Shown: piece by piece, positions 5,245-19,953 of the stretch | How the letters are laid out: each line of letters opens with the position of its first letter | How positions within the stretch are numbered: the first letter of the stretch is position 1 | Assembly (NCBI RefSeq): GCF_001642955.1 | Contig: NZ_LWSK01000005.1 | Location: 56,416 to 120,415 of the forward strand | Direction of reading: 5' to 3' | Length of the DNA: 64,000 nt | From: Rubripirellula obstinata | Lineage (GTDB): Bacteria > Planctomycetota > Planctomycetia > Pirellulales > Pirellulaceae | Notes under the pieces: generated by a model | Database searches by the model: none | Seen by the model: only the letters and a program-made list of their open reading frames with translations | Told to the model about the DNA's origin: nothing | Position numbers and translations under genes: made by a program

Positions 5245-5769
5245 TCATTGGCCGTAGTAGACAGGTTGGTTGGAGTAGACCGGCTGAGTCGTGTAGATCG
5301 GTTGGCCCCAACGGTTGTCTACGGCACGCGATCGTGAACTGCTGAATTGCCCAAAGTCGGCAACGGACATCGAATCGGCTCGGGCGTTGGACCATGTTCC
5401 GTTGGCTCGTGCGATTCCGGTACTTCGCGAGAAACCGCCAAGGCTAAGTGCGGTCGAGTCGGCTCGTGAACGTGCTCCCCAGCCGTTGGCGTGGGAACGT
5501 CCGTTGCTGATTGCGACGCCGCCGGCTGCGATCGCGGTGCTGTTGCCGCTGGCGAATCCGCCGTTGCGACCACTGCCTCGCATGCTGGCTCTTGCGTATC
5601 CGCCGCCCGTGGCGAACGAGGTTGCGTTGAGCCGTGTGTTGCCTCGGCCGCTGGCGGTCGAGATCGCTGTGCCGCCGGTTGAATAGCTGCTGGCGGTGAC
5701 TTGTGCGTCAACTTCGCTGGCGATCAGGGAAAGAGCGGCAACAGCGAGGGTCAGGATGCGAATGTTCAT
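5245..5769 (-). CDS. Small secreted Ser/Gly/Ala-rich protein
   Basis: 174 residues. The start is fixed by AAGGA nine bases upstream of an ATG and by a clean Sec signal peptide (MNIRILTLAVAALSLIAS, cut near VDA-QVT). The mature protein is low-complexity, rich in Ser, Gly, Ala and Arg, with loosely repeated ATGG/ISNG/RADS phrases, and it ends in a Tyr/Gln/Pro-rich tail (YTTQPVYSNQPVYYGQ). There is no recognisable catalytic motif. It is a single-gene unit with its own terminator. It may be a cell-envelope or matrix component, but no function can be assigned. Confidence 0.75.
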   Translation of the reverse strand: MNIRILTLAVAALSLIASEVDAQVTASSYSTGGTAISTASGRGNTRLNATSFATGGGYARASMRGSGRNGGFASGNSTAIAAGGVAISNGRSHANGWGARSRADSTALSLGGFSRSTGIARANGTWSNARADSMSVADFGQFSSSRSRAVDNRWGQPIYTTQPVYSNQPVYYGQ

Positions 5770-5896
5770 GGTCAGGGTTCCTTGGTAAATGTTGTAAAGT
5801 GTCGGATGGTGGGAAGGTTTTGTTGTCTTCACCAGTACCTGCGGGCAGTTGCCGAAAACCCCTTAACGATTTCTGAGAAATACTTTGCCGGACCCA

Positions 5897-8800
5897 ATGA
5901 AGCACGATCAAACGCAGCAAATTGCCGAAGCGATCTTCTTGGAAGCCGTCGAGATGCCAGCCGACGCCCAAGCCGCGTTCATTGCGTCGAAGTGTGGCGA
6001 TGACCCGAAGCTGAAGGCGATCGTGGAGTCATTGTTGTTGGCCGATGCAGCCGCAGGCGACGACGACTTTCTAGCATCCAAGTTTTTGAATTCGCCGAAT
6101 TTGGACGAAGGGAATTCCGCGAATACAACGCCACCGTCGAATGCTTCGGCAAGCGAAGCGGATCGTTTTGAGATCCTGATGGTTCACGATCGAGGCGGTC
6201 TCGGCGAGGTTCTATTGGCCCGGGACCGGCAATTGGGACGTGACGTGGCAGTTAAACAGATCCTTCACAAATGGCAGGGGCATCAAGAAGCCGGTGCGAG
6301 ATTTCTGCAAGAAGCCGAGGTCACCGGTCGGCTGGAACATCCCGGCGTCGTGCCTGTTTATGCGATGGGCACTTGGCCCGACGGAAGACCGTTTTATGCA
6401 ATGCGGTTCATCGAAGGCAAAACGCTCAAGCAGGTCATCCACGACCATCGGGAAGCCGGCAACACCGTCGCACAACTGCGTGGATTGCTGAACCGATTCA
6501 TCGACGTATGCAACACGATCGAATACGCCCACAGTCGCCGCATCATTCACCGCGACATCAAACCATCCAACATCATGGTCGGCCCCTACGGCGAAACACT
6601 GGTCGTCGATTGGGGGTTGGCCAAGATGTTGGAATCTGATTTTGATGATTCATTGACGGCTCAATTTATCGAGCAGCTTGGCGAAGACCGAGTCAAAAGT
6701 GAATCCAGTCGCACGCGGATTGGTGGGGCCGTCGGAACACCGCAATACATGAGTCCCGAACAAGCGAGCGGCAAACTTGATTCGATGGGCACCCGCACGG
6801 ACGTCTATCTGCTGGGTGCGACGCTGTATCAAATCCTGACCGGAAAACCGCCGCACAATGAAGAGTCGATTGCCAAGTTGATCGACCGGGTCAAGCAAGG
6901 GATATTGATTCCACCGCGTCAGATCGATGCCAGCATTCCTGCGACGTTGGAAGCGATTTGTTTGAAAGCGATGGAAACCGATTCGATCGATCGATACGCG
7001 TCTGCATCTGAACTTTCGCAAGACATTGAACATTGGCTTGCCGATGAACCGGTTTCCGTTTTCACTGACCCAATCGCGTCACGAATGGGACGTTGGATTC
7101 GCAAGAACCGCACCTTGGCGATGAGCGGCGGTGTCGCGGCGACACTGCTGACGATGAGTTTAGTGTCAGGTTCGATCCTTTGGAGTTATCAGCAGGCCCG
7201 AAATTTCAAACTGGAAAAAGAAAGAACAGCAAAAGCAAACCAGCTACTCGCCAGCCAAACGCAGCGGCTAACAGAGACACGGGAATCGGCTGAATCTGCC
7301 TGGCAAATGTCCAGCCGAGAAATCGCAGCCGACCGACTCGATTCTGCTGTTGCGATTCTACGTCGAGCCAAAAAAACGCTCAGCTCGAACGACACAGCGG
7401 CCACATCGACGGTTCCGCAAGATTCCCAATTGAAAGAACAAAAAGAACGCATCACCGCACGGTTGCAACGGCTTGAAAAACTGACTGACTTCTATCAGCA
7501 ATCGGAACTCGGCCAACAGTACAACGTGATGAGCCGCGACACCGAGGGCATCATGGCATCGACGGCGGCACTGAAATCACTGGGCGTTTGGGACAAACCA
7601 GATTGGTGGATGCATCTGCCGCAGCAGGATCTGAATCCAGACCGCCGCGATCGATTGCGTTGGGACGTGTATCAAACATGGTTGATGCTGGACGGCATGT
7701 TGATCAAAACAATCGGAACACGTTTGTTTGGCGTGATGCAGGAAGGCGGCGGCGGACGTTTGCTGCGAGCGTTGCGGCGGATGCAATCGGGTGCTGGAAT
7801 CGAGGAAGCGGAAGCGGCGATCGTGGTCAGCGACCGAATCGATTACTTCCGACAATCCGAATCGGCGCGTTGGTATCGCGGCATCGCGCGATACCGAACT
7901 CGAACCGGTCGGCGAATCAAGGCCGAAGATTTGCTGACGCCTCGCAACGCACCCGACGCACAGAAGATGGGCGTGCTGTGCTTAATTTCAGCCATGGATC
8001 CGTCGTTTCGCGTCGTCTTTCGCGACTACAAAAACCAGGATCCTATTCTGGCGGGACGGGACCTGTTTCAACGTTCAGCGTCGCTGCGTCCCGATCATTA
8101 TTGGACGCAGCTAAATCTGGGCCAGATGCAATACTTCATCGCAAGCCGCGAAACTGAACCATCATGGCTCAGCTACCAACCCGCGATTCAAACCATGGGG
8201 CGGTGCATTGCGATCAACCCAAAATCCTGTTTCGCCTTCGCCGACCGGTCATCGCTATTTCGATTTCAGTACGAAGCGATCGAGAAAGAACTGGATTCCG
8301 CTGACGATTCCGAAGGAAACAGAATCAGACTGCAAGAACAGCAAAAGGAATTGTTGCTGTGGAGTATTCAAGACGCCCAAACGGCGTATCGGCTCGCCAA
8401 AGATCATGCGTGGGTCGGCTGGACGTATGGCATGTCGCTTGCCACGGCTGGCCAACATGACGAAGCGAGGAAGCTGTTCTTGGAAGCATCCACAAAAACG
8501 TTTCCGCTGCTTGAATCCGCTGATTCAAAGCTAATCGCGGCTGATGACATTCGTGGCCGACAAGAGGCAGCCGAGTACACCGCAAAACAGATCCAGCAAA
8601 ACCCGGATCAGTTGCAATTGCGAACGCTGCTGGCTTCGATTTGTCTGAACCAGCAAAAACTAGACGATGCGATGGAGCATATTGAGGTATCGCTGGCTAG
8701 CCCTGACGCATCAGCGCATGCGTATGCCGTGCGTGGGATGTTGCGAGTCGATCGTGAAGACATTGACGGTGCGATGGAAGACTTCAAAGCAGCAGGCGAT

Positions 8801-9733
8801 AAGGATGCTTCCCATGTTTGGGCGGTGTATGGGTTGGCGGTCTGCGAAGATCTCAATGGCAATCATCCGGCTGCGTTGGATTTGTTTCGTCGTGCGACCA
8901 AGTTGGCAACGGGCGACGAACATCGGGCGGCATGCATGTTGGGCGTGGGGCGAGTGCTGGCAATGCTTGGCCGTTACGAACGAGCGCTCGCTGCGTTTGA
9001 ATCGGCGCAGGACTACCAGGCGGCGTGCAACATTGCCGAAGCAGCAAAACCGCTGGTGGCCCGTTTTCGAGATTTGCGGTCGAGATCGGTCAACGCCAAG
9101 GAAACCGAGGCGTTGGAATCGTTCCTTAAATCGCTCGCGAAATTGCCGCGTGCAACCAAAGTCGATATCTCCGATTCAACCGATGGAAAACCAATGCGGG
9201 CATCGCTTCTGAATGGTGATTTCGAAGTTGGTCAAATGCGTTACTGGAATCACGAAAACGGAATCCGCTGGTTAAACTCACCGGGCTACGCCGCAACTGC
9301 CAAGGTCACTCAAAAGCAGGCTTATCGCGATCAGTATTCCTTGCATGTTGTTGGCGACGATTTGCCCAGCGATACCGAACGCGAAATTGACAAATCAGAC
9401 GCAAGCGGCAGCACATCACAAACATTCCCTATCCCAGCTCAATCACGATGCCGACTTTCGGTTTGGGTCAAAACAAAAGATCTCGAACCCGATTCAGCTC
9501 GATTGGAAATCCAAGTTGCTGATCGGCCACCGACCATGCTGCGAGTGCCGCAAGGTCAGCAAGACTGGACGGAATTGTCAGCCGATTTCGACGTTGGGCC
9601 ATCCGCCGATCCCAGCCTAACGGTGGCTGAGGTGGAGCTGAGAATCGTCTCGGCCGGTCCCGGCGAAGTCTGGTACGACGACATCGAGGTATCCGTCATT
9701 CCGTTGCCAGAAAACGAAGTCGTTGATCAGTGA
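5897..9733 (+). CDS. Membrane Ser/Thr protein kinase with TPR repeats and C-terminal beta domain
   Basis: About 1,278 residues. The Ser/Thr kinase domain spans roughly residues 90-365: a degenerate glycine loop (HDRGGLGEV), lysine K120 in VAVK, the catalytic loop HRDIKPSN with D220, and DWG in place of DFG at 238-240. APE appears as SPEQ. A single membrane segment (around GVAATLLTMSLVSGSILWSY) follows, then a coiled-coil-like region and a long helical array with TPR-like repeats (about 700-1080). A final beta-rich domain (NGDFEVGQMRYWNHENG onward) resembles a carbohydrate-binding sandwich. The family is common in Planctomycetes. The frame could start at a TTG four codons earlier; I prefer the ATG. 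It is probably a signalling kinase sensing a periplasmic or protein ligand, which is inference. Confidence 0.93.
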   Translation: MKHDQTQQIAEAIFLEAVEMPADAQAAFIASKCGDDPKLKAIVESLLLADAAAGDDDFLASKFLNSPNLDEGNSANTTPPSNASASEADRFEILMVHDRGGLGEVLLARDRQLGRDVAVKQILHKWQGHQEAGARFLQEAEVTGRLEHPGVVPVYAMGTWPDGRPFYAMRFIEGKTLKQVIHDHREAGNTVAQLRGLLNRFIDVCNTIEYAHSRRIIHRDIKPSNIMVGPYGETLVVDWGLAKMLESDFDDSLTAQFIEQLGEDRVKSESSRTRIGGAVGTPQYMSPEQASGKLDSMGTRTDVYLLGATLYQILTGKPPHNEESIAKLIDRVKQGILIPPRQIDASIPATLEAICLKAMETDSIDRYASASELSQDIEHWLADEPVSVFTDPIASRMGRWIRKNRTLAMSGGVAATLLTMSLVSGSILWSYQQARNFKLEKERTAKANQLLASQTQRLTETRESAESAWQMSSREIAADRLDSAVAILRRAKKTLSSNDTAATSTVPQDSQLKEQKERITARLQRLEKLTDFYQQSELGQQYNVMSRDTEGIMASTAALKSLGVWDKPDWWMHLPQQDLNPDRRDRLRWDVYQTWLMLDGMLIKTIGTRLFGVMQEGGGGRLLRALRRMQSGAGIEEAEAAIVVSDRIDYFRQSESARWYRGIARYRTRTGRRIKAEDLLTPRNAPDAQKMGVLCLISAMDPSFRVVFRDYKNQDPILAGRDLFQRSASLRPDHYWTQLNLGQMQYFIASRETEPSWLSYQPAIQTMGRCIAINPKSCFAFADRSSLFRFQYEAIEKELDSADDSEGNRIRLQEQQKELLLWSIQDAQTAYRLAKDHAWVGWTYGMSLATAGQHDEARKLFLEASTKTFPLLESADSKLIAADDIRGRQEAAEYTAKQIQQNPDQLQLRTLLASICLNQQKLDDAMEHIEVSLASPDASAHAYAVRGMLRVDREDIDGAMEDFKAAGDKDASHVWAVYGLAVCEDLNGNHPAALDLFRRATKLATGDEHRAACMLGVGRVLAMLGRYERALAAFESAQDYQAACNIAEAAKPLVARFRDLRSRSVNAKETEALESFLKSLAKLPRATKVDISDSTDGKPMRASLLNGDFEVGQMRYWNHENGIRWLNSPGYAATAKVTQKQAYRDQYSLHVVGDDLPSDTEREIDKSDASGSTSQTFPIPAQSRCRLSVWVKTKDLEPDSARLEIQVADRPPTMLRVPQGQQDWTELSADFDVGPSADPSLTVAEVELRIVSAGPGEVWYDDIEVSVIPLPENEVVDQ

Positions 9734-9759
9734 ATCGATCAATCAATCCTCGCGAGTGA

Positions 9760-10050
9760 TTGTGTTGGTCAAGGTGCGTCAACTCTCCTGCAAAGGAGTT
9801 CGCGGAGTTTGATTGGTCGGCCAAAACGGTTCTGGGCAATCAGTTGCTATCTCCTTGGCCGATCAGACGCTCGCGAAATTGGATTGCCATCGTACGCACG
9901 GACTTCAGAAAAGCCGAGCGCGAGCAGCTTGATTGGAGCGTGAAGCGAGGTGTTCCCTTTGGTGGAGAAAATTGGGTAGACTCCAACGCACACAAGTTCG
10001 ATTTAGAGTCAACGATGCGACCACGAGGACGCCCCAAGAAACTGAAGTGA
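9760..10050 (+). pseudogene. C-terminal remnant of REP-associated (Y1/HUH) transposase
   Basis: The 96-codon open frame matches, by eye, the tail of REP-associated tyrosine transposases: a PLPRDWL-like segment (PWPIRRSRNWIAIV), then the characteristic SVKRGVPFG..W motif, a FDLEST phrase and the closing RPRGRPKK. The N-terminal HUH and tyrosine catalytic motifs are absent, so only the 3' third survives. The start codon of the frame has no meaning. It lies directly after the kinase gene and before a GGTGTCCGACACC palindrome typical of the termini of such elements. Confidence 0.75.
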
Positions 10051-10085
10051 TGACCATTGATTGAAGCTACCGAAACAGCCAATTC

Positions 10086-10123
10086 GGTGTCCGACACCTT
10101 TTCAGAGACCACCTTTTCAGAGA
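10086..10123. repeat. REP-like palindrome plus short direct repeat
   Basis: GGTGTCCGACACC is a near-perfect palindrome, directly followed by two copies of ACCTTTTCAGAGAC. It lies 35 bases beyond the transposase remnant and just before the truncated gene that precedes rhuM. It therefore probably marks the edge of an inserted element. Confidence 0.6.
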
Positions 10124-10228
10124 CACGAACGCATCTACATCGGACGCCGATTTAAGAACGACACCGAACGCCTTGAAATGCTGTTCGCGATGTACACCGA
10201 TATGACCAGCAAGAAGGCGAAGGCATGA
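10124..10228 (+). pseudogene. 3' remnant of the gene formerly upstream of rhuM
   Basis: An open frame of 34 codons ends HERIYIGRRFKNDTERLEML, then FAMYTDMTSKKAKA and a TGA that overlaps the rhuM ATG (ATGA). The start-stop overlap and the sensible protein-like sequence indicate the tail of a real, once co-translated gene. Everything upstream has been replaced by transposon debris. The tail reminds me of proteins encoded beside type I restriction or helicase genes, but I cannot name the family with confidence. Confidence 0.55.
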
Positions 10229-11226
10229 GCGATCTGATCCTGTACACGTCTGAAGACGGGGAGAGTCGGCTGCAGTTGCGAGTTGACAGCGGCACGATTT
10301 GGCTGAGTCAAGCTGAGATTGCCGAGCTATTCCAAACCACCAAGCAGAATGTTTCTTTGCACGCCAAAAACATCCTGGAGGAGGGCGAATTGCGGGCTGA
10401 TTCAGTTGTCAAGGAATCCTTGACAACTGCCGCCGATGGCAAGAATTACCGCACAAAACAGTACAACCTCGACCTGATCCTGGCCATCGGCTTCCGTGTC
10501 CGCTCGCCACGCGGCACCCAGTTCCGCCAATGGGCGACGACTCACCTTCGCGATTATCTGGTCAAGGGTTTCGTGATGGATGACCAGCGTTTGAAAGATC
10601 CCGGCGGCTGGGACTACTTCGATGAACTGCTGGCTCGGATTCGCGAGATTCGAGCGTCCGAGAAACGGTTCTACCAAAAGGTTCGTGACCTGTTCGCCCT
10701 CAGCAGCGATTACGGTCTCGACGAACGGGCCACGCAATTGTTTTTTGCCGAGGTACAGAACAAGCTGCACTACGCGGCCACGGGGCAAACCGCCGCCGAG
10801 TTGATCGTTGGCCGCGCCAACCCCAGCGAACCAAGCATGGCGTTGAAGAACTGGAAGGGTTCGCGTGTGCGGAAGCAGGACGTGATCGTTGCGAAGAACT
10901 ATCTGACTCAGGACGAAATCGACACGCTGAATCGCTTGGTCGTGATCTTCTTGGAACAAGCCGAATTGCGGGTGAAGAAACGCAAGGATCTGTCGCTCGA
11001 TTTCTGGCGGCAGAACGTCGACGACCTGTTGCGATTCAACGACCAAGCGGTGCTCGAAGGATCCGGCAAGGTTAGCCGAGAAGAGATGACTCAAGTCGCC
11101 CACGATCGCTATGACTCATTCGATGCCCAGCGACGGATCGCGGAAGTGGCCGAGGCGGATGCGGAAGATCTGCGGCAGATTGAGGAACTGGAGCAGGAAC
11201 TCAAACGGAAGAAACGAGACACATAA
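10225..11226 (+). CDS. rhuM: RhuM family protein
   Basis: 333 residues matching the virulence-RhuM family (Pfam Virulence_RhuM). Family hallmarks visible: an N-terminal region with winged-helix character (GTIWLSQAEIAELFQTTKQ), the KNYRTKQYNLDLILAIGFRV segment, FRQWATTHLRDYLVKGF, and a C-terminal helical half with SRVRKQDVIVAKNYL and LDFWRQNVDDLL, ending in a charged coiled coil. RhuM genes are often found inside type I restriction-modification loci; biochemical function is not established. Its ATG overlaps the stop of the truncated frame upstream, so it was the downstream member of an operon that has lost its head. Reading frame and length look intact. Confidence 0.9.
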   Translation: MSDLILYTSEDGESRLQLRVDSGTIWLSQAEIAELFQTTKQNVSLHAKNILEEGELRADSVVKESLTTAADGKNYRTKQYNLDLILAIGFRVRSPRGTQFRQWATTHLRDYLVKGFVMDDQRLKDPGGWDYFDELLARIREIRASEKRFYQKVRDLFALSSDYGLDERATQLFFAEVQNKLHYAATGQTAAELIVGRANPSEPSMALKNWKGSRVRKQDVIVAKNYLTQDEIDTLNRLVVIFLEQAELRVKKRKDLSLDFWRQNVDDLLRFNDQAVLEGSGKVSREEMTQVAHDRYDSFDAQRRIAEVAEADAEDLRQIEELEQELKRKKRDT

Positions 11227-11411
11227 ACCACCCTGGCACCCTGCTTCGGGGAACGAACAAAACTACCCTGGCTCCCCTTTCCCCGAAAACGCTGAAAATG
11301 CTTTTTAAGGAATTTCTTTAAGGGTTTTCTGCGGAGGTCTCGCAGGTGTTGGTGAGGCGGCTTGATTGAGTCGTCCAAACCACCAACTTCTTCATACCCG
11401 CGAGAAAAACG

Positions 11412-11945
11412 ATGACCCTCTCCAACACCAAGAAAACCCTACTCGGCTGCGTCGCAACCCTGATGATCGCCGCAGCAACCGCGACACCCGCATCGGCTCA
11501 ACGGGCCAGTACCTTTGTCGATATCTTCCGTGGCGGTGCCGAAGCCGGAGCTTCGGCGGACGGCCAATTAAAGTTCGCCAAATCAAAAAGCAGTTCGAGG
11601 AACGGCGTTCAATTCGGTCACGGCTTCGCGGTCGGTGCCGGCCCCAACGGAATCGCCCTGTCGAATTCGATCGGTGGCGGTGCTGGTCCCTTGGGCGTGG
11701 CCCACAACATGAACATGACGATCAGCCCCAACGGAACTCACATCAGCCATGGCGGGGTGGTTTCCCAAGGCGGAAATCGACGAGTGACGTCCGGCGGTAG
11801 CACTGGCATTCAGAACGGCCAAGTCTACGGCGGCAGCGAATCCACCGGCCACGGCAACCGAACGCGAGCTTGGTCGAACAGCCGCACCCGAAACTGGACT
11901 CAACCGAGCTCCTTCCAAGGTGGCCGAATCTTCCGCCGCAACTAG
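11412..11945 (+). CDS. Small secreted Gly/Ser/Asn-rich protein
   Basis: 177 residues with a Sec signal peptide (TLLGCVATLMIAAATATPASA, cut before QRAS). The mature part is rich in Gly, Ser, Asn and His, with phrases such as GVQFGHGFAVGAGPNGIALS and TISPNGTHISHGG that suggest short beta repeats. No cysteine or enzymatic motif is seen in the mature part. A GAGAAA sequence precedes the ATG. It lies in a block of four exported-protein genes on the same strand, but is separated from the next by a palindromic repeat. Function unknown; possibly an extracellular structural protein. Confidence 0.75.
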   Translation: MTLSNTKKTLLGCVATLMIAAATATPASAQRASTFVDIFRGGAEAGASADGQLKFAKSKSSSRNGVQFGHGFAVGAGPNGIALSNSIGGGAGPLGVAHNMNMTISPNGTHISHGGVVSQGGNRRVTSGGSTGIQNGQVYGGSESTGHGNRTRAWSNSRTRNWTQPSSFQGGRIFRRN

Positions 11946-11988
11946 ATCCCAACCGCGTTACGTCCAACCAGCCGTTTTAATCACTCTA

Positions 11989-12081
11989 GTGAGCCGCGAC
12001 GCGTAAGCGGCCGGGCATTCCGGGCATTCCTCGCATTCCGGGCATTCCTCGTTGCCCGAGGCCTTACGGCCAGCGGCTCAC
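11989..12081. repeat. Palindromic element with internal gggcattcc tandem repeats
   Basis: Outer arms GTGAGCCGC and GCGGCTCAC are complementary. Inside lie four imperfect copies of GGGCATTCC(TCG) and the phrase GACGCGTAAGCGGCC, paired with GGCCTTACGGCC. It fills most of the gap between the two small secreted-protein genes and resembles the other ACGCGTAAGCG elements of the window. Confidence 0.65.
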
Positions 12082-12125
12082 AAACCCATTCAAAACCATT
12101 CAAACTATTCACAACGGAAACTCAA

Positions 12126-12758
12126 ATGTTCAACTCAACTCACTCGATCATCCTGTCAATCGTTCTCACACTTTCAGTGCCCACCATCGCTCGATGTGAT
12201 GACGCCGTCACGACGAATTCGCAAACTTCCAACTGGAATATCGAATTCGAACCCGTACCAGAAATCCTTCGCCTGCACTGTCCTCCGCTGCAATCAGGAC
12301 AAGGACTAGTCGTCAAACGCATCGGCGATGATTTCGATGCACAATTTCAACTGAATGCTGGCGACATTCTGTTGTCCGCGTCAGGAATCGCTATTCGCAA
12401 CGTTGGTGATCTACCGGGGCAAGTTCCCGCTCATGTGATGGTGATGCGTCGCGGACAGATCACCCCGCTGGGTCAAGGCCGACGCTTTTGCGGTTGGAAT
12501 GGATACCGACCTGGATTCATGAATCCGGCAATGATGCAGCAGCGGCAAGGCGGTGTTTCCGCATCCTCTTATGCCGACGGCAACGAAAGCGTTTCGGTTA
12601 GCCAAAGCGGGAATCAGATTTCCCTTGATATGTCGCTGCCGGGACTGGATGCGGGGAACATCAGCTATCGAGGAACGCGTGACCAGATTCAACGCGAAGT
12701 TGAAAGCAGCAACTTGCCGCCTGCAGCCATCCAGCGAGTGCTCGAAGCGATTCAGTAA
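12126..12758 (+). CDS. Secreted protein with partial PDZ-like domain
   Basis: 210 residues. The N-terminus is a Sec signal peptide (SIILSIVLTLSVPTIARC-DD). Residues ~55-110 read like the ligand-binding half of a PDZ domain: GLVVKRIGDDF, then LNAGDILLSASGIAIRNVGDL, the usual 'GDIL..ingx.v...' pattern of DegP/HtrA-type PDZ repeats. A Met/Gln-rich linker and a C-terminal part (SVSQSGNQISLDMSLPGL) of unknown fold follow. No protease domain is present. It lies 125 bases upstream of the TTxxxxEE-repeat protein, on the same strand and likewise exported, so a role with that product is possible but unproven. Confidence 0.75.
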   Translation: MFNSTHSIILSIVLTLSVPTIARCDDAVTTNSQTSNWNIEFEPVPEILRLHCPPLQSGQGLVVKRIGDDFDAQFQLNAGDILLSASGIAIRNVGDLPGQVPAHVMVMRRGQITPLGQGRRFCGWNGYRPGFMNPAMMQQRQGGVSASSYADGNESVSVSQSGNQISLDMSLPGLDAGNISYRGTRDQIQREVESSNLPPAAIQRVLEAIQ

Positions 12759-12883
12759 TGACCATGCGTGCACCGCATGATCCTTTCTGCCAACAATTTG
12801 TTCGTCTTGTTGGAGTTTATGAACTAACTTTTAGCTGGCGAATCTCTTTGCCAGCGTCGCGTTTTTAACCGCAGGAACTTGCA

Positions 12884-13654
12884 ATGAAAAATACGAAATC
12901 CAGCGTAGCTGATTCAGAATCCAGTGAAGCCGATTTGTCACCGCCGATCGAATCGTTGATGGAACAGTTTCAGAGCGGACGATTGGGCCGCCGAGATTTC
13001 TTGCGAAGTGCCGTCAAAGCGGGCGTGTCGTCCGCGATCGCTTACTCGCTGCTCGGTCAAGCCACCGCGAAGGCGCAGAACGTCACCACCTACGCCGTCG
13101 GTGAAGAATCGCAAACTTTGCCGCAACCGCCGGGCAATGTAAGTCCGCCCAACCAGAAACCAACGACCTACGCAGTTGGCGAAGAATCACAAGTCACCGG
13201 TGCCTATGGTGAAGGACCACCGAAGCCAACGACCTATGCAGTTGGCGAGGAAGGTCCACCGGTGAATACGACGCAGGCAGTTGGTGAAGAAGGTCCACCG
13301 GTTTACACGACGCAGGCCGTTGGTGAGGAACAACCACCACATTGCAATCGTCCCCAACCGACGACGCGTGCGATCGGCGAAGAATCTCCGTCGCCAGTAA
13401 CCACGTATGCCGTTGGTGAAGAGAGCCAACCGACCACGCAAGCCTACGGTGAAGAAAGTCCAGTTTCGCCGCCGACCACGGGACCACCACCAACGACTTG
13501 GACTAGCGGCGAGGAAAGTCCATCGCCGCGTCCAACAACCCAAGCGGTTGGCGAAGAGAATTCCGGCGGACCTCGGTCCACCCCGCAACGCCAAATCGAA
13601 TCGAACCTGCGAAGCCGAATTCCAAAGATCTGGAAAGGTTTTGGACGCTGGTAG
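12884..13654 (+). CDS. Putative multi-core graspetide precursor with Tat signal (ten TTxxxxEE motifs)
   Basis: 256 residues, start supported by AGGA seven bases before the ATG. Residues 1-34 are an acidic leader. Residues 35-64 form a twin-arginine signal (GRRDFLRSA, then a weakly hydrophobic stretch), with a likely cut after AKA at residue 64. From residue 68 the protein carries ten TTxxxxEE motifs, at 68, 94, 116, 129, 142, 160, 173, 184, 204 and 218: four TTYAVGEE, three TTQAVGEE, and one each TTRAIGEE, TTQAYGEE and TTWTSGEE. A decayed copy (TGAYGEG) lies near 105-111. Linkers are Pro/Ser-rich. The tail (about 236-256) is basic and aromatic. TTxxxxEE is the known core of plesiocin-type graspetides, in which Thr-Glu side chains are esterified by an ATP-grasp enzyme; such an enzyme is encoded next. 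The repeats could instead be structural. Confidence 0.8.
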   Translation: MKNTKSSVADSESSEADLSPPIESLMEQFQSGRLGRRDFLRSAVKAGVSSAIAYSLLGQATAKAQNVTTYAVGEESQTLPQPPGNVSPPNQKPTTYAVGEESQVTGAYGEGPPKPTTYAVGEEGPPVNTTQAVGEEGPPVYTTQAVGEEQPPHCNRPQPTTRAIGEESPSPVTTYAVGEESQPTTQAYGEESPVSPPTTGPPPTTWTSGEESPSPRPTTQAVGEENSGGPRSTPQRQIESNLRSRIPKIWKGFGRW

Positions 13655-13670
13655 GGCAGCATTCCAAATT

Positions 13671-13803
13671 AGGTAGGCCGGAACAAGGAGTCTTCGACGC
13701 AGTTCCGGCAATCCGCGCCAACGCAGCATGCCAACACAGCATGCCAACGCAGCATGCCAGAACAGCGCCGAAGCGGCTCGTTACCGGCCTACGTCCTAAC
13801 CTA
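13671..13803. repeat. Palindromic element with three 13-bp tandem units
   Basis: The ends are complementary (AGGTAGGCCGG ... CCGGCCTACGTCCTAACCT) and share the closing phrase with the element near 5082. Inside, a 13-base unit AACGCAGCATGCC is repeated three times at 13720-13758, the middle copy with one change. It occupies most of the gap between the repeat-protein gene and the ATP-grasp gene. Confidence 0.75.
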
Positions 13804-13890
13804 CCGAACACTCGCTGTCGCTCGGTTCGTACACGCAACGCCGCTCCGCAGCTTTTGCTTTGCACCCGAAAACCACGCTGACATGGAATT

Positions 13891-13921
13891 CTAGCCTGTG
13901 TTGAACGTAACCACAGGCTAG
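13891..13921. repeat. Hairpin (10-bp stem) ahead of the ATP-grasp gene
   Basis: CTAGCCTGTG pairs perfectly with CACAGGCTAG across an 11-base loop, 56 bases upstream of the ATP-grasp start. No T-run follows on the plus strand, so it is not a classical terminator. It could attenuate transcription or stabilise a processed precursor transcript, or it may be only another interspersed palindrome. Confidence 0.6.
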
Positions 13922-13977
13922 AAGCCCATGCCACTTTTTCTGACCTCCAGTCAGCTCTCGATGTCCTGCGTTAAACC

Positions 13978-14835
13978 ATGTCCGAACAGCTTTTGTTAAT
14001 CGTTGGTGGCGAATCAGACCCCAACACACAGCGGATCGCTGACCAAGCCCACCTCCGCGGCATTCGCTATTTCTTTTGGGACACCGATCGCGATGATGCT
14101 CACCAAATCGCCTGGGACTTTCGGTCAACGCGGTTAGACCTGGGTGACCAAACGATCCATCCGACATCGGTCTACCTTCGGTACAACGTTTTCGAGGGTG
14201 ACCCGCAGCGAAATATCTCCGCCTTTGAGATGATTCAGTCCTACGTACTTGCTTGGCCACAGATTCGGATTCTGAATCGCGAATCGATGACTGATTCGAA
14301 CAACAAGTCTAAGAATCTGCGTCTTGCACTGGAGCTGGGTTTTGAAATTCCAGAAACCATCGTGATGGGAGACCTAACACCGCTGACGACGATTCCCGAC
14401 CCACATGATCTGGCGATGAAACCGCTTGGCGGCGGTGCCCACACGATCTCGGTCGGTGACATCTATCAAGACCTTGGGACGTTGGCCGGCTACGGTCCCC
14501 AGTTTGTTCAAGAAAAACTAGTCGGTGAAAATTTACGAGTCTTTTCGATCGGTGGACGCGCGTTCGGCTTTCATTTGCAAACCACTTCGCTGGACTATCG
14601 CGACGACGGAAACGTCGGAGTCGCACAAATACAAGTCCCCGAAATCCTACAAGCACCCACGCTTGCGCTGGCGCAGCGTATCGGATTCGATTACTGTGCT
14701 CTCGATTTCCGCTGTCGAAACGGGATGGATCAACCGGTGTTCTTGGAGGTCAATTCATTCCCAATGTTTGTACGATTTGACGATGCGGGACAAAATTGCC
14801 TCGCCGACGCAGTCTTAGAATTCCTTGGCGGCTAG
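13978..14835 (+). CDS. ATP-grasp ligase, putative graspetide macrocyclase
   Basis: 285 residues with a full ATP-grasp layout: an N-terminal Rossmann-like lobe (LLIVGGESDPNTQRI); a central lobe NKSKNLRLALELGFEIPETI; the nucleotide-binding lysine K148 in AMKPLGGGAHT; the hinge segment FVQEKLVGENLRVFSIGGR; and metal-binding residues D243 (ALDFR) and E257/N259 (FLEVNSFPMF). The RVF..G..(A/V)F pattern followed by DYR, and the LEVN motif, are typical of RimK-like and microviridin/plesiocin-type ligases that activate carboxylates for ester or amide formation. The NPNGQW ending of microviridin ligases is absent. No partner enzyme is fused. It follows the TTxxxxEE protein on the same strand after 323 bases and precedes the ECF gene by 61 bases. 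Substrate assignment is inference from context. Confidence 0.85.
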   Translation: MSEQLLLIVGGESDPNTQRIADQAHLRGIRYFFWDTDRDDAHQIAWDFRSTRLDLGDQTIHPTSVYLRYNVFEGDPQRNISAFEMIQSYVLAWPQIRILNRESMTDSNNKSKNLRLALELGFEIPETIVMGDLTPLTTIPDPHDLAMKPLGGGAHTISVGDIYQDLGTLAGYGPQFVQEKLVGENLRVFSIGGRAFGFHLQTTSLDYRDDGNVGVAQIQVPEILQAPTLALAQRIGFDYCALDFRCRNGMDQPVFLEVNSFPMFVRFDDAGQNCLADAVLEFLGG

Positions 14836-14896
14836 AACATCAAGTAAGGTATTGGGAACGCCACCCGATCACCTCACTATTTTCAAGTTCGCCGAA

Positions 14897-15463
14897 ATGA
14901 ACTCGCCAGAAATCGAAGTCTCGATGTTGCTTCAGCAAGTCAAGGAAGGCGACGAAGTGGCACGAGAACAATTGTTCATCACGCTGCAGTCGGAACTTCG
15001 CGACATGGCCGGTGCGTTGATGAGACGCGAGCGACCCGACCACACGCTTCAAGCAACGGCATTGGTCAACGAAGCCTGCCTGAAATTGTTGGACTCTGAC
15101 GCTTTAGGCAATGCATCAAATCGGCGTTACATGTTTGGAATGGCAAACCGTGCGATGCGTCAAATCCTGATTGACCACGCACGACGCCGAAATACCAACA
15201 AACGCGGTGGCGACCAAAAAAGAGCGTCATTGGATATCGTGCTGGACAATTTCGAGGCCAGTAACCAATGCCAGTTCGAGGATTTGGAAACCGCATTGTC
15301 CAGTCTGGAGAACGACTCACCACGCCAACGCGAAGTCGTCGAACTTCGATTCTTTTCAGGTTTATCGGTCGAAGAAGTCGCAGATGTCCTGGAAGTCAGC
15401 GTCGGTACCGTCGAACGAGATTGGCGATTGGCGCGAGCGAAGTTGTTTCAGCAATTGAGGTGA
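14897..15463 (+). CDS. RNA polymerase sigma factor, ECF subfamily
   Basis: 188 residues. The sigma-2 region runs from LLQQVKEGDEVAREQLF through ATALVNEACLKLL and RRYMFGMANRAMRQILIDHARR, and sigma-4 is LSSLENDSPRQREVVELRF with the helix-turn-helix LSVEEVADVLEVSVGTVERDWRLARAKL. The sigma-2 sequence, with its DHARRR phrase, matches the ECF type common in Planctomycetes and Acidobacteria. No anti-sigma gene is adjacent; such factors often work with Ser/Thr kinases. The frame opens 24 codons earlier at a TTG inside the ATP-grasp tail, but the ATG fits the family start. It is 61 bases after the ATP-grasp gene and could be co-transcribed with it. Confidence 0.92.
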   Translation: MNSPEIEVSMLLQQVKEGDEVAREQLFITLQSELRDMAGALMRRERPDHTLQATALVNEACLKLLDSDALGNASNRRYMFGMANRAMRQILIDHARRRNTNKRGGDQKRASLDIVLDNFEASNQCQFEDLETALSSLENDSPRQREVVELRFFSGLSVEEVADVLEVSVGTVERDWRLARAKLFQQLR

Positions 15464-15647
15464 CAGGCCGACGCAAACGGCACACTCTTGCAGCAATCAA
15501 GAAACCAACAGCAGGGTTAACAAAACTTGACGTCACGCGGATCAATTGTTGCCAAATCGAGCGGCAAAGTTGTGGCATATCTAATGTCGTTATGCGGCGT
15601 GCGAGTTACCATAAACCCCAGTGCTTAGGAACGAGCGGGAAATGAGT

Positions 15648-15705
15648 GTCGCCTTTCGCTCCGCGAAAGTAGCGAATCCGCTGCTTTCGCGGAGCGAAAG
15701 GCGAC
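15648..15705. repeat. 22-bp perfect inverted repeat
   Basis: GTCGCCTTTCGCTCCGCGAAAG pairs without mismatch with its reverse complement across a 14-base spacer. It lies in the ~345-base gap between the ECF gene and the GH2 gene, in which I see no other gene or clear signal. It could form a strong hairpin at the end of the sigma-factor transcript. It is more likely one of the interspersed palindromes of this genome. Confidence 0.8.
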
Positions 15706-15808
15706 TATAAAAAGTCGCACGTACCTTAAGCCTGACTGCGGACTCTTTCGCGACGGCCTTTGCTGAATTCCTAACCGAACAATTTATTTGACGATTGGCA
15801 AATTTGAA

Positions 15809-18800
15809 ATGTGGATAAACCGACTTGTGTGTAGTTTCCTACTGCTGATTGTTTGCAGTTCTTCGCTGGGCCACGCCAATGCAATTGACCTGAGTGGGAC
15901 TTGGAATGTCCGCCTTGATGAACAGGATGTTGGCGAATCGGAATCCTGGTTTGATGAAGTCAAAGGCACTCCGATCGAGCTACCTGGAATCACCGGCGAA
16001 GCTGGGTTGGGGGAACCGCTATCCCTAGAACCTGCGTTGACCAAGAAAGTCTTTAAGCACTTGCATCAACGTCACAAGTATGTCGGTGCGGCTTGGTACG
16101 CACGCAACGTTCAGTTGGACGATGATTGGGACCAGCAAAGCACTTCGTTAGTTCTTGAGCGGTCAATCTGGGAAACGACTGTTTGGATCAATGGGCGAAA
16201 AGTCGGTTCAAGAATTTCGCTCTCGGTGCCACACCGATACTCCGTGGCCGATTTTTTAAAGCCCGGCGACAATCGCATTGTCATCCGTGTGGACAACCGG
16301 CCGGTCGTTGACATCGGCGTGCTGGGCCACGCCTACACCGACGAAACGCAGACCATTTGGAACGGGCTGATTGGTGCCATCGAGTTAACCACGGAAGCCG
16401 CACCAGAGAATCAGTCGATTCAGATCAAGAATTTTCCGCTAAGAGTCAAAGTTACCGGTTCGAATCTAGCCAGTTCCGAAAAGCTAGAGGTTACCGCTGA
16501 GCCGATTGGACACGACGCACCGGCATGGAGCCGGACGGTCTCGGTTCAAGGCGATGGGCAAGAGACGCTGATTCCAGTTCCCTCCGACACCATCAGGACT
16601 TGGTCCGAATTCGATCCCGCGCTTTACCGCGTGACATGTCGTTTACAGGAGACCGAAGCAAGCATCGTGACCGGTTTTCGTGAAGTCAAAGCCGACGGAA
16701 CAAAGTTGCTGATCAATGGAACGCCATCGTTCATGCGTGGAACTTTGGAGTGCTGCATTTTCCCCAAGACCGGTTACCCGCCGATGGACAGCGCCGGTTG
16801 GGACAAGGTGATGGGCACGCTAAAGGAATACGGGCTCAATCATTTGCGTTTCCATTCTTGGTGTCCACCCGAAGCTGCGTTTGCATCAGCCGATCGTCAC
16901 GGCATCTATTTGCAGGCCGAGCTTCCCAATTGGACGTTCAAAATGGGCAAGCTGCCCGAGACTGATGCCTTCTTTAAAGAGGAAGGCAGACGCATCATCC
17001 GCGAGTATGGTCATCATCCGTCGTTGGTGTTCTTTAGTCTTGGGAATGAACTCACTGGCGACTACGCCTATCTGGATGAGATGGTTAAGGAGCTACGCCC
17101 ACTTGCGCCTCATTTGCTGTACACGAGTACTTCGTATTCGTTTTCCAAGCGAGGCACTTTGCCAGGGCCCGAAGATGACTTCTTCATTACGCAGAGATCA
17201 AAAACTGGTTGGGTTCGCGGGCAAGGGTTCTTGAACCAGACTTGGCCGACGACTGACAGCGATTATCTTGAAGGACTTCAGTGCATTGAAATACCTTTGG
17301 TGACGCACGAAGTTGGGCAGTACAACGTGTATCCCAACCTGGCCGAACTGCCCAAGTACAACGGCAATTTGCGTGCAGTTAATTACGAAGCGATCCAGCA
17401 AGACTTGCGGTCGAAGGGGCGGTTGGATCAGGCTGCTTCCTACACATTGAACTCCGGAAAACTCGCAGCGCTCTTGTACAAAGAAGACATCGAGCGAGCC
17501 CTGCGAACCAAGGGGCTGTCTGGAATTCAATTGCTAGACCTTCACGACTTCCCCGGTCAAAGCACCGCGACAGTGGGACTGTTGGATTCGTTTTGGGATT
17601 CCAAGGGTGTCATCGAAGCGAAAGATTTCCGTCGCTTTTGTGCGCCCGTCGTTCCGCTGATTCGAGTGCCTAAGATGGCATGGTCGGCGGGCGAAACGTT
17701 TCAAGCTGAAATTGAAATCGCCAACTTTGGTCAAGCAGTCCTGGAAGATGCGAAAGTCCGGTGGGAAGTGCAAAGCGATTCCGGCGAAACGATTTCATCA
17801 GCAACGCTGGCCGGGCAAAACATCGCAATCGGCAACGGCAATCAAGTTGGCACGATTGAGTTGCCGCTGCCTTCGATCAAAAACGCAGTTCAGTGGAAAG
17901 TGACTGTCTCGATTGCTGGCACAGACTATGCCAACGATTGGAATTTTTGGGTTTATCCAAATTCAGAATCAGACGCGCAAACCCAATCGAATGATTCAGC
18001 CATCGTCGTGCGAAACTTCGGCAAACCACTGTTTGATGCGTTGGCTCAGGGACGGCGTGTGCTGTTCCTGCCCAAACGCGAAGAAATAAAGTCGCCGCTT
18101 GATGGCAGGTTTATCCCTGTGTTTTGGAGCCCGCTGCACTTCCCCAATCAACCCGGATCGTTGGGGACTGTGATTGACGCTGACCATCCGATCTTTGCGG
18201 ATTTCCCCACTTCGACGCATACCGATTGGCAGTGGTGGGAATTGCTGGCGACATCGACGTCCATCAGCGGATCTGAATTCGGTGATGACTTTAAGCCCAT
18301 GATGCAGTTCATTGACAAGTACAACCGAAATGATCTTCCGGCGATTCTATGGGAAGCGAAAGTCGGCGATGGCTCGCTGCTGGTCTGTTCTCTTGACATT
18401 GAAAGTGACCCCCAAAAACGCATCGTCGCGGCTCAGTTGAAACGTTCAGTTTTGTCTTACATCAACGGCAGTCAGTTTGCACCGACTCATCAGCTAGAAC
18501 CACAGCAACTGGTGAAGCTGTTCCAAACGCGTCCCTATCGCATTCGCCTTGATGGTGGATCCAGCCACCCGGACTACCCGGTCACCAACCTGGATGACGG
18601 CGACCCTAAAACAATCTGGCATACGGATTGGCGTGATTCCAACAACCAGTATCCCTACGCTTTAACGATTGAACTATCGCAACCGCAAAAAGTTCAGGGG
18701 TTAGAATTCGTTCAGCGCAGCGGAAACCCCAACGGCCGAATCGATCGTTATCAGGTTTCCACTAGCGTTGATGGTACAACTTGGTCCGTGATCGAAGACG

Positions 18801-18982
18801 TCAACGAAACGGAAACTTCTCTTCGATTCAAGCAGCCGACGGTCGCTGCGTTCATTCGATTCGAGGCGCTTTCCGAGGTGAATGATCAGCCAAATTGTGC
18901 GGTCGCAGAACTAAAGCCGATTCTTGATGCGGGAATCACATCGGTGGATGAACTAGGGTTGATCGAAGGATTCAATCATTGA
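15809..18982 (+). CDS. Secreted glycoside hydrolase family 2-like enzyme with F5/8-type C domain
   Basis: 1,057 residues. Signal peptide MWINRLVCSFLLLIVCSSSLGHANA, then the family-2 order: sugar-binding jelly roll (IDLSGTWNV...), an Ig-like domain, and a TIM barrel opening with FRLINGTPSFMRG-like sequence and RFHSWCPPEAAFASADRHGIYLQAE. The proposed acid/base Glu is in FSLGNELTG (about residue 414); a candidate nucleophile is in THEVGQYNVYP. The last ~130 residues (TNLDDGDPKTIWHTDW, then a hydrophobic beta pattern) look like a discoidin/F5-8C carbohydrate-binding module. Sugar specificity cannot be read. The stop overlaps the start of the GH5 gene, so both are translated from one message and probably act on the same polysaccharide. 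An upstream TTG is possible but unlikely. Confidence 0.88.
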   Translation: MWINRLVCSFLLLIVCSSSLGHANAIDLSGTWNVRLDEQDVGESESWFDEVKGTPIELPGITGEAGLGEPLSLEPALTKKVFKHLHQRHKYVGAAWYARNVQLDDDWDQQSTSLVLERSIWETTVWINGRKVGSRISLSVPHRYSVADFLKPGDNRIVIRVDNRPVVDIGVLGHAYTDETQTIWNGLIGAIELTTEAAPENQSIQIKNFPLRVKVTGSNLASSEKLEVTAEPIGHDAPAWSRTVSVQGDGQETLIPVPSDTIRTWSEFDPALYRVTCRLQETEASIVTGFREVKADGTKLLINGTPSFMRGTLECCIFPKTGYPPMDSAGWDKVMGTLKEYGLNHLRFHSWCPPEAAFASADRHGIYLQAELPNWTFKMGKLPETDAFFKEEGRRIIREYGHHPSLVFFSLGNELTGDYAYLDEMVKELRPLAPHLLYTSTSYSFSKRGTLPGPEDDFFITQRSKTGWVRGQGFLNQTWPTTDSDYLEGLQCIEIPLVTHEVGQYNVYPNLAELPKYNGNLRAVNYEAIQQDLRSKGRLDQAASYTLNSGKLAALLYKEDIERALRTKGLSGIQLLDLHDFPGQSTATVGLLDSFWDSKGVIEAKDFRRFCAPVVPLIRVPKMAWSAGETFQAEIEIANFGQAVLEDAKVRWEVQSDSGETISSATLAGQNIAIGNGNQVGTIELPLPSIKNAVQWKVTVSIAGTDYANDWNFWVYPNSESDAQTQSNDSAIVVRNFGKPLFDALAQGRRVLFLPKREEIKSPLDGRFIPVFWSPLHFPNQPGSLGTVIDADHPIFADFPTSTHTDWQWWELLATSTSISGSEFGDDFKPMMQFIDKYNRNDLPAILWEAKVGDGSLLVCSLDIESDPQKRIVAAQLKRSVLSYINGSQFAPTHQLEPQQLVKLFQTRPYRIRLDGGSSHPDYPVTNLDDGDPKTIWHTDWRDSNNQYPYALTIELSQPQKVQGLEFVQRSGNPNGRIDRYQVSTSVDGTTWSVIEDVNETETSLRFKQPTVAAFIRFEALSEVNDQPNCAVAELKPILDAGITSVDELGLIEGFNH

Positions 18983-19953
18983 ATCGCTTGTGGTTCGTAG
19001 GCCTGTTAACGATTTCCTGGGCAGCTTGCTCGGCCCGTGGGGATGATCCGCACCGGGGGCTCAATTTGCCGCCGACGCAAGGCACCACCAATGCGGGCGC
19101 GTTTCAAACCGGCGTCTATCGGTTTGATTATTCGCCAGAATTTCTGAAACAGATTCCAGCAAGCGGGTTTACTCACATCCGTGTCCCGGTCAATGTCGCG
19201 ACCTCGAAGGATTCGGAAGCGATGCAGAAAATCGCTTCGTTGTTTTCAGCGGTTGGCGATCGCGGCATTCTCTGCATGTTTGACACCAACGAAGCGGGCG
19301 AAACGGGTCACGGAAATGGCAAGCCGAACGACGTTGCTTCGATCGCAAACGCGTGGCGGCAACTGTACCGAATGTTCCGTGGAAAGCCAAACATTGTCTT
19401 TGAGCTTTTCAACGAACCTTTTGGATATGCGAAAACCGCTGCTGGCCGTGACGAGTACATCAATGATATGAAGATCATCATTCGGCGAGGTCGATTGCCA
19501 AGCCGACGGTGCATCATCGATGGGATGGGATATGCCGATGACATTCAGTCGGTCGCAAAAGCTGGATGGCGTGGCGCGTTGGGATACCATTTCTATCCCA
19601 ATTGGCTGGGCGATGACGACGCGTCAGCGGAAGCGTTTTCGAAGCTGATCGTTCAACAGTGCTCTGGCATTTCCAATGACATTTACATCACCGAATTTGG
19701 TACTCGGTTAGATTTCGACAAAGGCGGTCGAACGCCCCCCGAAAATTCTAGCCAAGATCACGATGCGCTTGTTGGGCTACGCGAGGCCATCAATTTTCTG
19801 AAAGGTGAGGGGCGGCCAATTAAAGGAGCCTATCATTGGCATGGCTGGGACAACGGCGACACCTATAGCTACTGGGACCAAGCGAATCGGTTAGGTGCAT
19901 TGAAGATTCGCGAAATACAAGATGGAAGCGAACCAAAGCTGCTGGATCAATGA
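18979..19953 (+). CDS. Secreted glycoside hydrolase family 5 (cellulase-like)
   Basis: 324 residues, begun by TTG whose codon overlaps the preceding TGA (TTGA), a translational-coupling arrangement. The N-terminus is a short signal peptide (LWFVGLLTISWAACSARG). The GH5 barrel shows RGLNLP at strand 1, HIRVPVNV, the acid/base glutamate E146 in FELFNEPFG, a conserved YHFYPNW, and the nucleophile E239 in YITEFGT. It ends with a WHGWDNGD strand. GH5 enzymes hydrolyse beta-linked glucans, mannans and related chains; subfamily not determinable here. It works with the GH2 enzyme encoded immediately upstream. Confidence 0.9.
   Translation: MNRLWFVGLLTISWAACSARGDDPHRGLNLPPTQGTTNAGAFQTGVYRFDYSPEFLKQIPASGFTHIRVPVNVATSKDSEAMQKIASLFSAVGDRGILCMFDTNEAGETGHGNGKPNDVASIANAWRQLYRMFRGKPNIVFELFNEPFGYAKTAAGRDEYINDMKIIIRRGRLPSRRCIIDGMGYADDIQSVAKAGWRGALGYHFYPNWLGDDDASAEAFSKLIVQQCSGISNDIYITEFGTRLDFDKGGRTPPENSSQDHDALVGLREAINFLKGEGRPIKGAYHWHGWDNGDTYSYWDQANRLGALKIREIQDGSEPKLLDQ

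Follow-up and report, generated by a model that had tools for sequence, protein, structure and literature searches.

We analyzed a 64,000-nucleotide stretch of the Rubripirellula obstinata genome (contig NZ_LWSK01000005.1, positions 56,416 to 120,415; the window) and found on its plus strand a gene pair that appears to encode a plesiocin-type graspetide system. The first gene (12884 to 13654) encodes a predicted precursor of 256 amino acids (aa) with a twin-arginine translocation (Tat)-type signal, ten TTxxxGEE cores joined by Pro/Ser-rich linkers, and a conserved C-terminal tail. The second (13978 to 14835) encodes a stand-alone ATP-grasp ligase of 285 aa, a predicted graspetide macrocyclase of the plesiocin type. 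An initial annotation had interpreted the pair as a graspetide system, and our analysis supports this interpretation: the ligase is related to macrocyclases, and the adjacent precursor has conserved hydroxyl and carboxyl residues. Judged from sequence, the cross-linking logic would be the known one of plesiocin. The packaging (a Tat signal where a classical leader and exporter would stand, and a WKxFxRW tail) and the predicted export route would be new.

Repeated cores and an ATP-grasp ligase

Group 2 (plesiocin-type) graspetides have a repeated TTxxxxEE core that forms a ring-within-ring hairpin. The precursor had been annotated with ten such motifs, and we found exactly ten copies in the open reading frame (ORF), every one of the form TTxxxGEE, between 13085 and 13558. 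Cores 1 to 5 lie at 13085 to 13108, 13163 to 13186, 13229 to 13252, 13268 to 13291, and 13307 to 13330, and cores 6 to 10 lie at 13361 to 13384, 13400 to 13423, 13433 to 13456, 13493 to 13516, and 13535 to 13558. No other TTxxxxEE was found when the window was translated in all six frames (127,996 codons), and across 2,000 shufflings of the mature region the motif count averaged 0.036 and never exceeded 2. Degenerate copies are also present (for example, VTGAYGEG). The codons of the motif Thr (ACC, ACG, ACA, and ACT) and Glu (GAA and GAG) vary synonymously between copies; therefore, the copies do not come from one recent DNA duplication. A PDB search with the precursor sequence gave no match, and a scan for promoters and terminators gave no signal above chance.

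We then followed the motifs through the relatives of the precursor. A database search returned 121 relatives, with 120 among the matches listed. From database matches, genomic loci, and the window, we assembled a set of 58 distinct proteins ending in RW, counting proteins with the same last 150 residues once. These 58 precursors contain 457 strict motifs, 3 to 12 in each. At the exact spacing before GEE, a pair of hydroxyl residues is present in 512 of 524 triplets (456 TT, 47 ST, and 9 TS; the other 12 differ). After [TS]TxxxG, 503 of 519 contexts have EE as the next two residues, and none of the other contexts has an Asp variant; across all 163 repeat-bearing matches, the two residues are EE in 1409 of 1465 contexts and ED in 6. 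Swaps occur among the hydroxyls and hardly ever among the acids, the pattern that ester rings of a set size would need and one consistent with selection for both the ester chemistry and the size of the ring. Within the ring, position 6 is Gly in all but one of the strict motifs (456/457), position 4 is mostly Ala, and position 5 is mostly Val, Ile, or Leu. Position 3 is hypervariable, with 3.43 bits compared with 3.59 bits in the linkers; in the window precursor, it is Tyr four times, Gln four times, Arg once, and Trp once. The linkers are 28% Pro and of variable length.

The initial annotation had also named the next gene on the strand as a stand-alone ATP-grasp ligase with K148, E257, and N259 in place. 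We aligned the ligase with 40 relatives, chosen among the 120 matches listed, and these three residues, together with R187 and D243, are invariant in all 40. K148 (codon at 14419 to 14421) is the predicted ATP-binding lysine, and E257 and N259 (codons 257 to 259, at 14746 to 14754) are predicted Mg ligands. R187 (codon at 14536 to 14538) aligns with residue 233 of the PsnB chain. This residue is probably Arg213 of PsnB, the acid-recognizing residue, on the assumption that the chain carries a 20-residue tag.

The annotation had further proposed a profile check of whether this protein is a graspetide ligase rather than a RimK or Ddl enzyme, and the outcome favors the former. Pfam gave no match for the ligase. 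NCBIfam gave four matches, all below cut-off (TIGR04187, 5e-10; MvdC, 2e-7; MvdD, 5e-6; MptN, 9.8e-4), and the first three of these are graspetide maturases. A single-sequence search of the PDB found PsnB at 2.4e-9 and, marginally, MdnB (5ig8) at 0.46. With the 40-relative profile, PsnB was again the best match (1.6e-22), followed by CdnC (1.5e-12), AMdnB (2e-11), two Mdn enzymes (6e-8 and 5e-7), and 9bou (PruB, 1.1e-6); the best RimK/LysX-type chain (3vpd) reached 0.83. We found no closer sequence relation to RimK, LysX, or MptN than to the macrocyclases. An AlphaFold2 model of the ligase (predicted local distance difference test, 94.5; predicted template modeling score, 0.90) retrieved PsnB chains at ranks 1 to 11 in Foldseek. 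VIA-align placed AMdnB and PsnB first, with LysX, RimK, and Ddl close behind. Therefore, the fold alone is not decisive, and it is the sequence profile alone that separates the macrocyclases. These comparisons support a relation of the ligase to graspetide macrocyclases and not to RimK or Ddl.

Association of the two genes and their neighborhood

The annotation had suggested comparing the gene pair across related genomes, and our survey covered 241 genomes from the family of the host. At an E value of ≤1e-3, the ligase matched in 22 genomes; 18 of these matches are near full length (E ≤ 1e-100), and 4 are weak and partial only. The precursor matched in 19 genomes, namely, the 18 with a strong ligase and G210, where the match (3.7e-4) covers residues 22 to 86 alone within a 633-aa frame. 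In all 18 strong-ligase genomes, the precursor adjoins the ligase, upstream and on the same strand (L001, L002, and L016 to L031); in G230, pieces of the precursor are split over two contigs. The chance of both 18-genome sets coinciding would be 1.6e-27 if the genomes were independent, an assumption that fails because 13 of the 18 are labeled as a single genus (g85). Planctomycetes bacterium K23_9 and records from Stieleria, Roseiconus, and Rhodopirellula are among the named carriers. A scan of genome contigs with the single ligase sequence found no relative; with the ligase alignment, it found 11 loci, and the precursor was present at every one. Among the 120 listed precursor relatives, 27 match a listed ligase relative by equal size of the source contig. 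Between the window and G019, the proportions of nonsynonymous (pN) and synonymous (pS) differences are 0.14 and 0.84 for the ligase and 0.32 and 0.69 for the precursor, so nonsynonymous changes are the fewer in both genes. The weak ligase matches (L003, L004, and L032 to L037) have no strict TTxxxxEE within their loci of about 2.5 to 3.5 kb. Where neighbors of these weak matches are visible, they look by eye, with no family search, like tetrahydromethanopterin-pathway genes.

The two genes are separated by 323 bp in the window and by about 10 to 100 bp in the relatives inspected (L002/L038, L005, and L007). Within the window gap (13655 to 13977), there is a short direct repeat around cagcatgccaac.

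The pair lies in an island (5245 to 15463) that also encodes a Ser/Thr kinase with tetratricopeptide repeats (TPR; 5885 to 9733), a PDZ-like protein (12126 to 12758; the PDZ label is taken from relatives), an extracytoplasmic function (ECF) sigma factor (14897 to 15463), and two secreted-looking Gly/Ser-rich proteins (5245 to 5832 and 11412 to 11945). The pair sits inside such a Gly/Ser-rich/PDZ-like/ECF-sigma island in the window, L006, L008, L009, L014, and L015, in most cases with the Ser/Thr kinase-TPR gene, and L005, L007, L012, and L013 have a partial island. We rejected a larger operon that would include the island genes. Among the 241 genomes, 24 have a relative of the PDZ-like protein and 35 have one of the Gly/Ser-rich protein at 11412 to 11945; the pair is absent from 11 and 19 of these, respectively. 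Four genomes fetched as carrying the island without the pair (G001, G003, G012, and G201; L126 to L129) keep the island genes together, with the PDZ and sigma matches about 140 bp apart in G201. Conversely, the pair lies away from the island in G019 and G232. In G019, the pair and the PDZ-like and Gly/Ser-rich genes are on different contigs, and of ten window genes tested, the pair alone is found near. Likewise, the pair is the sole element common to 12 relatives compared, whose other neighbors are annotated in part. Thus, the functional unit is two genes, and the pair is a movable two-gene cassette. Also within the window island is a RhuM-family protein (10225 to 11226; Pfam, 5.4e-107), for which the compared relatives show no match close to the pair.

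Predicted cross-linking and export

The N-terminal region of the precursor (residues 1 to 64; 12884 to 13075) is a predicted Tat signal. It has an n-region, the twin-arginine motif RRDFL (residues 36 to 40; 12989 to 13003), a hydrophobic stretch, and a predicted cleavage site between AKA and Q, so that the features of a Tat substrate are all present. The combination of a Tat signal with repeated cores had been noted in the initial annotation, and we found it conserved in kind. RR is present in all 57 aligned precursors (the 58th, P0157, begins inside the repeats), Phe stands at +3 in 98%, and the three positions of AxA-Q are kept in 77, 84, and 86%. The UniRef name of one relative (P0138) begins "Twin-arginine translocation signal." The host genome has a TatC match of 200.6 bits and two TatA/B matches of 51.0 and 35.8 bits. 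Peptidase_C39 gave no match in the host genome, and the same search was positive in 8 of 14 control genomes. Pfam identified no peptidase or transporter in the genes of the window that were tested from 5245 to 19953; it identified the kinase, RhuM, the sigma factor, a glycoside hydrolase, and a cellulase, and the other genes had no match. At the other end of the precursor, the tail IWKGFGRW (13628 to 13651) is conserved across the 58 precursors as W-x-x-[FW]-x-R-W, with Trp at −7 in 55 and Phe or Trp at −4 in all 58; the last two columns are circular, because the set was chosen to end in RW.

We think it probable that the ligase staples the ten motifs as two-ester hairpins in the cytoplasm and that Tat then exports the chain whole. 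The cross-linking would take place in the cytoplasm because ATP is needed. In each TTxxxGEE, two Thr-Glu side-chain esters, one nested in the other, would close a hairpin, a chemistry and nesting extended from plesiocin, and from this analogy we infer up to twenty esters in one chain. The signal points to the Tat translocase as the route for the cross-linked chain, and signal peptidase would then cut near residue 64. The product would stay a long chain, because the cassette is two genes only. The least certain step is the last, in which the product would be an extracytoplasmic array of serine protease inhibitors and each hairpin would owe its target to the residue at ring position 3, which is hypervariable. 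Modification would come before export by Tat, given that Sec would not easily thread a stapled chain. Cyclized lanthipeptides are thought to be poor Sec cargo, and Urban et al. (PMC5686179) speculated about Tat for them and described unsuccessful preliminary attempts. The natural reading is that the system uses Tat because cross-linked chains pass Sec poorly.

Either end of the precursor could dock the ligase, since the graspetide synthetase ThfB tolerates a C-terminal leader in the engineered case described in PMC13003496. We do not claim the Tat signal as a proven ligase leader. Its n-region and RRDFL context are conserved, and n-region/RRDFL-type signals are common in Tat proteins. Nor do we claim a universal C-terminal recognition tag, although WKxFxRW in the Tat group and PFGx[FY] in other TTxxxGEE proteins look similar: the motif ORFs of L132, L134, L135, and L136 have neither tail, and no ligase is visible beside the PFG-tailed TTxxxGEE proteins.

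We weighed three other accounts of the pair. One agrees that the motifs are cross-linked and holds that cuts in the linkers then release a large number of small bicyclic peptides, which is how graspetides are ordinarily made. Pro-rich linkers of variable length would suit this, leader peptidases or peptidase-transporters are described as frequent in graspetide clusters (PMC13097080 and PMC8939145), and an ORF about 1 kb downstream of the pair in G019 (L038:11502-13040) looks by eye like a zinc carboxypeptidase. However, the pair is all that the 12 relatives are seen to share, the host genome gave no Peptidase_C39 match, Pfam found no peptidase among the window genes tested, and whole precursors keep the C-terminal tail; we consider release of small peptides unlikely. 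Much more improbable still is that the ligase adds amino acids or polyglutamate in the manner of RimK, LysX, or MptN, extending Glu side chains or the C terminus and making no rings. The fold is common to LysX and RimK, the MptN family gave an NCBIfam match, and some ligase relatives carry the database name "RimK-type ligase." Yet such an activity would leave the paired Thr/Ser residues at fixed spacing unexplained, and the best RimK/LysX-type profile match is far weaker than that of PsnB.

The remaining account accepts the cross-linked, exported chain and makes it structural, a stiff, stapled, Pro-rich fiber or matrix protein of the envelope instead of an inhibitor. We regard this as a real possibility, although well short of an even chance. 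It would accommodate the protein-length product, the Pro-rich linkers, and the secreted-looking Gly/Ser-rich neighbors in the island; moreover, the repeat graspetide corallotide is called collagen-like in PMC13097080, and one relative (P0189) has a sortase-like LAFTG end. On the other hand, the variability of ring position 3 is close to that of the linkers, and the other ring positions vary far less, a pattern to be expected of a specificity residue. In addition, the nearest characterized product is a protease inhibitor, and the island does not belong to the functional unit. The reading that we prefer thus remains a chain stapled in the cytoplasm and exported whole by Tat. Whether the pair represents a family of ribosomally synthesized and posttranslationally modified peptides with a Tat signal as leader is, in our estimate, evenly balanced. 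In such a family, a protein-length precursor would be stapled in the cytoplasm and exported finished, each hairpin would have its own bait residue, and several proteases would be blocked at the cell surface.

Wider family and known systems

Beyond the host's family, a sample of the phylum gave ligase matches at E ≤ 1e-3 in 16 of 392 genomes. Of the eight best ligase loci outside the window, six (L130 and L132 to L136) have a TTxxxGEE ORF no more than about 2 kb from the ligase; at the other two (L131 and L137), about 13 kb of sequence contains no motif ORF. L049 to L059 have none within loci of about 2.3 to 3.6 kb. The motif ORFs of L133 and L134, from other planctomycete families, have twin-arginine-like N termini. 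Those of L130 and L135 start with a short stretch rich in Phe/Leu-Ile/Val-Glu, which by eye we take to resemble classical graspetide leaders. The ORF at L135:7090-8742, beside the ligase, encodes 550 aa with 17 strict TTxxxxEE motifs that alternate with a VTLAIPExGR-type repeat.

FGx[FYR]-like tails are present in 76 of the 163 repeat-bearing database proteins. Among the 120 precursor relatives listed, 42 have such a tail, and none of these 42 has the Tat pattern. In P0147, P0150, P0166, P0174, P0195, P0202, P0221, and others, the TTxxxGEE repeats form C-terminal tails on unrelated globular proteins. By Pfam, the globular part is a tyrosinase in P0195 (4.8e-34) and PrcB_C in P0147 (2e-7). Many of these proteins end in PFGx[FY], and the named records come from Okeania, Symploca, Kofleriaceae, and Pyrinomonadaceae; they may be enzymes or inhibitors that carry graspetide tails as decoration. 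P0189 has a Tat-like start, seven TTxxxGEE motifs, and a sortase-like LAFTG-hydrophobic-RRR end, which would make it a possible wall-anchored relative; its source contig is equal in size (4956) to that of the ligase relative P0116. In P0190, a Tat-like signal runs, by eye, into a lipobox-like Cys ahead of the TTxxxGEE region, a possible lipoprotein relative. If the proposal of a Tat-led family is true, L133 and L134 (Tat-like), P0190 (lipobox-like), and P0189 (sortase-like) would represent recurrent graspetide display on cells. Plasmid matches to P0150 (two records) and P0116 (one record) were set aside as low-complexity or distant ATP-grasp similarity. One plasmid locus, L060 from Peribacillus, encodes a repeat-rich hypothetical protein that matches part of P0150, probably through low complexity, and adjoins an exosporium BclB-related gene.

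If the precursor is cross-linked as predicted, its Tat signal would explain how a bulky, protein-length modified chain leaves the cell. Many modified peptides leave through dedicated peptidase transporters, and this system would test directly whether Tat accepts cargo that is stapled and otherwise disordered. Because it consists of two genes, it can be rebuilt in E. coli. With up to twelve strict motifs per chain, the precursors would also be a natural library for programmable protease inhibition.

We compared the system with the literature on graspetides. The main text of the 2026 RODEO survey (PMC13097080) does not contain "planctomyc," "secret," or "Tat," and that of PMC8939145 does not contain "planctomyc," "Tat signal," or "twin-arginine"; the signal-peptide passage of the latter concerns a neighboring lipoprotein family. 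In the open-licence literature, taken in part and excluding the surveys Lee 2020 and Ramesh 2021 and the supplements, there is no description of a Tat-exported graspetide. The RODEO survey lists two uncharacterized groups, 34 and 35, with long precursors of repeated motifs, and group 35 consists of a synthetase and a precursor only. The window system resembles both groups in its long repeat precursor and group 35 in its two-gene makeup, and it may be among them, catalogued without description. The same survey describes an NHLM-type peptidase transporter as a frequent, not defining, companion of group 2. The host genome has no such companion, as judged by Peptidase_C39 (the relatives' genomes were not searched). 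The survey's groups are drawn in a similarity network at an alignment score of 70. For the direct link between the window ligase and PsnB, the pairwise E value of 2.4e-9 is far from that score.

The closest known system is plesiocin (PsnA2-PsnB), which shares with the window pair the tandem TTxxxxEE cores and the single ATP-grasp ligase and whose PsnB is the best profile and Foldseek match. Plesiocin reportedly has four cores, going by a 2017 title; the window precursor has ten, together with a Tat-type signal and a WKxFxRW tail, its host genome has no C39 peptidase, and its ligase is only about 20% identical to PsnB. PsnB is described as forming two lactones per core repeat (PMC9484694), and plesiocin as a serine protease inhibitor that is more potent the more motifs it has (PMC13097080). 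Corallotide (group 15 in PMC13097080) is similar in having a protein-sized precursor with five repeated cross-linked motifs, but it is built on KxxxD isopeptides and hydroxylation by an oxygenase. The predicted export step resembles that of Tat-exported proteins in its RRxFL motif, its AxA site, and the presence of TatA/B and TatC. The cargo would differ: covalent staples, not a folded domain or a cofactor, are predicted to hold it locked.

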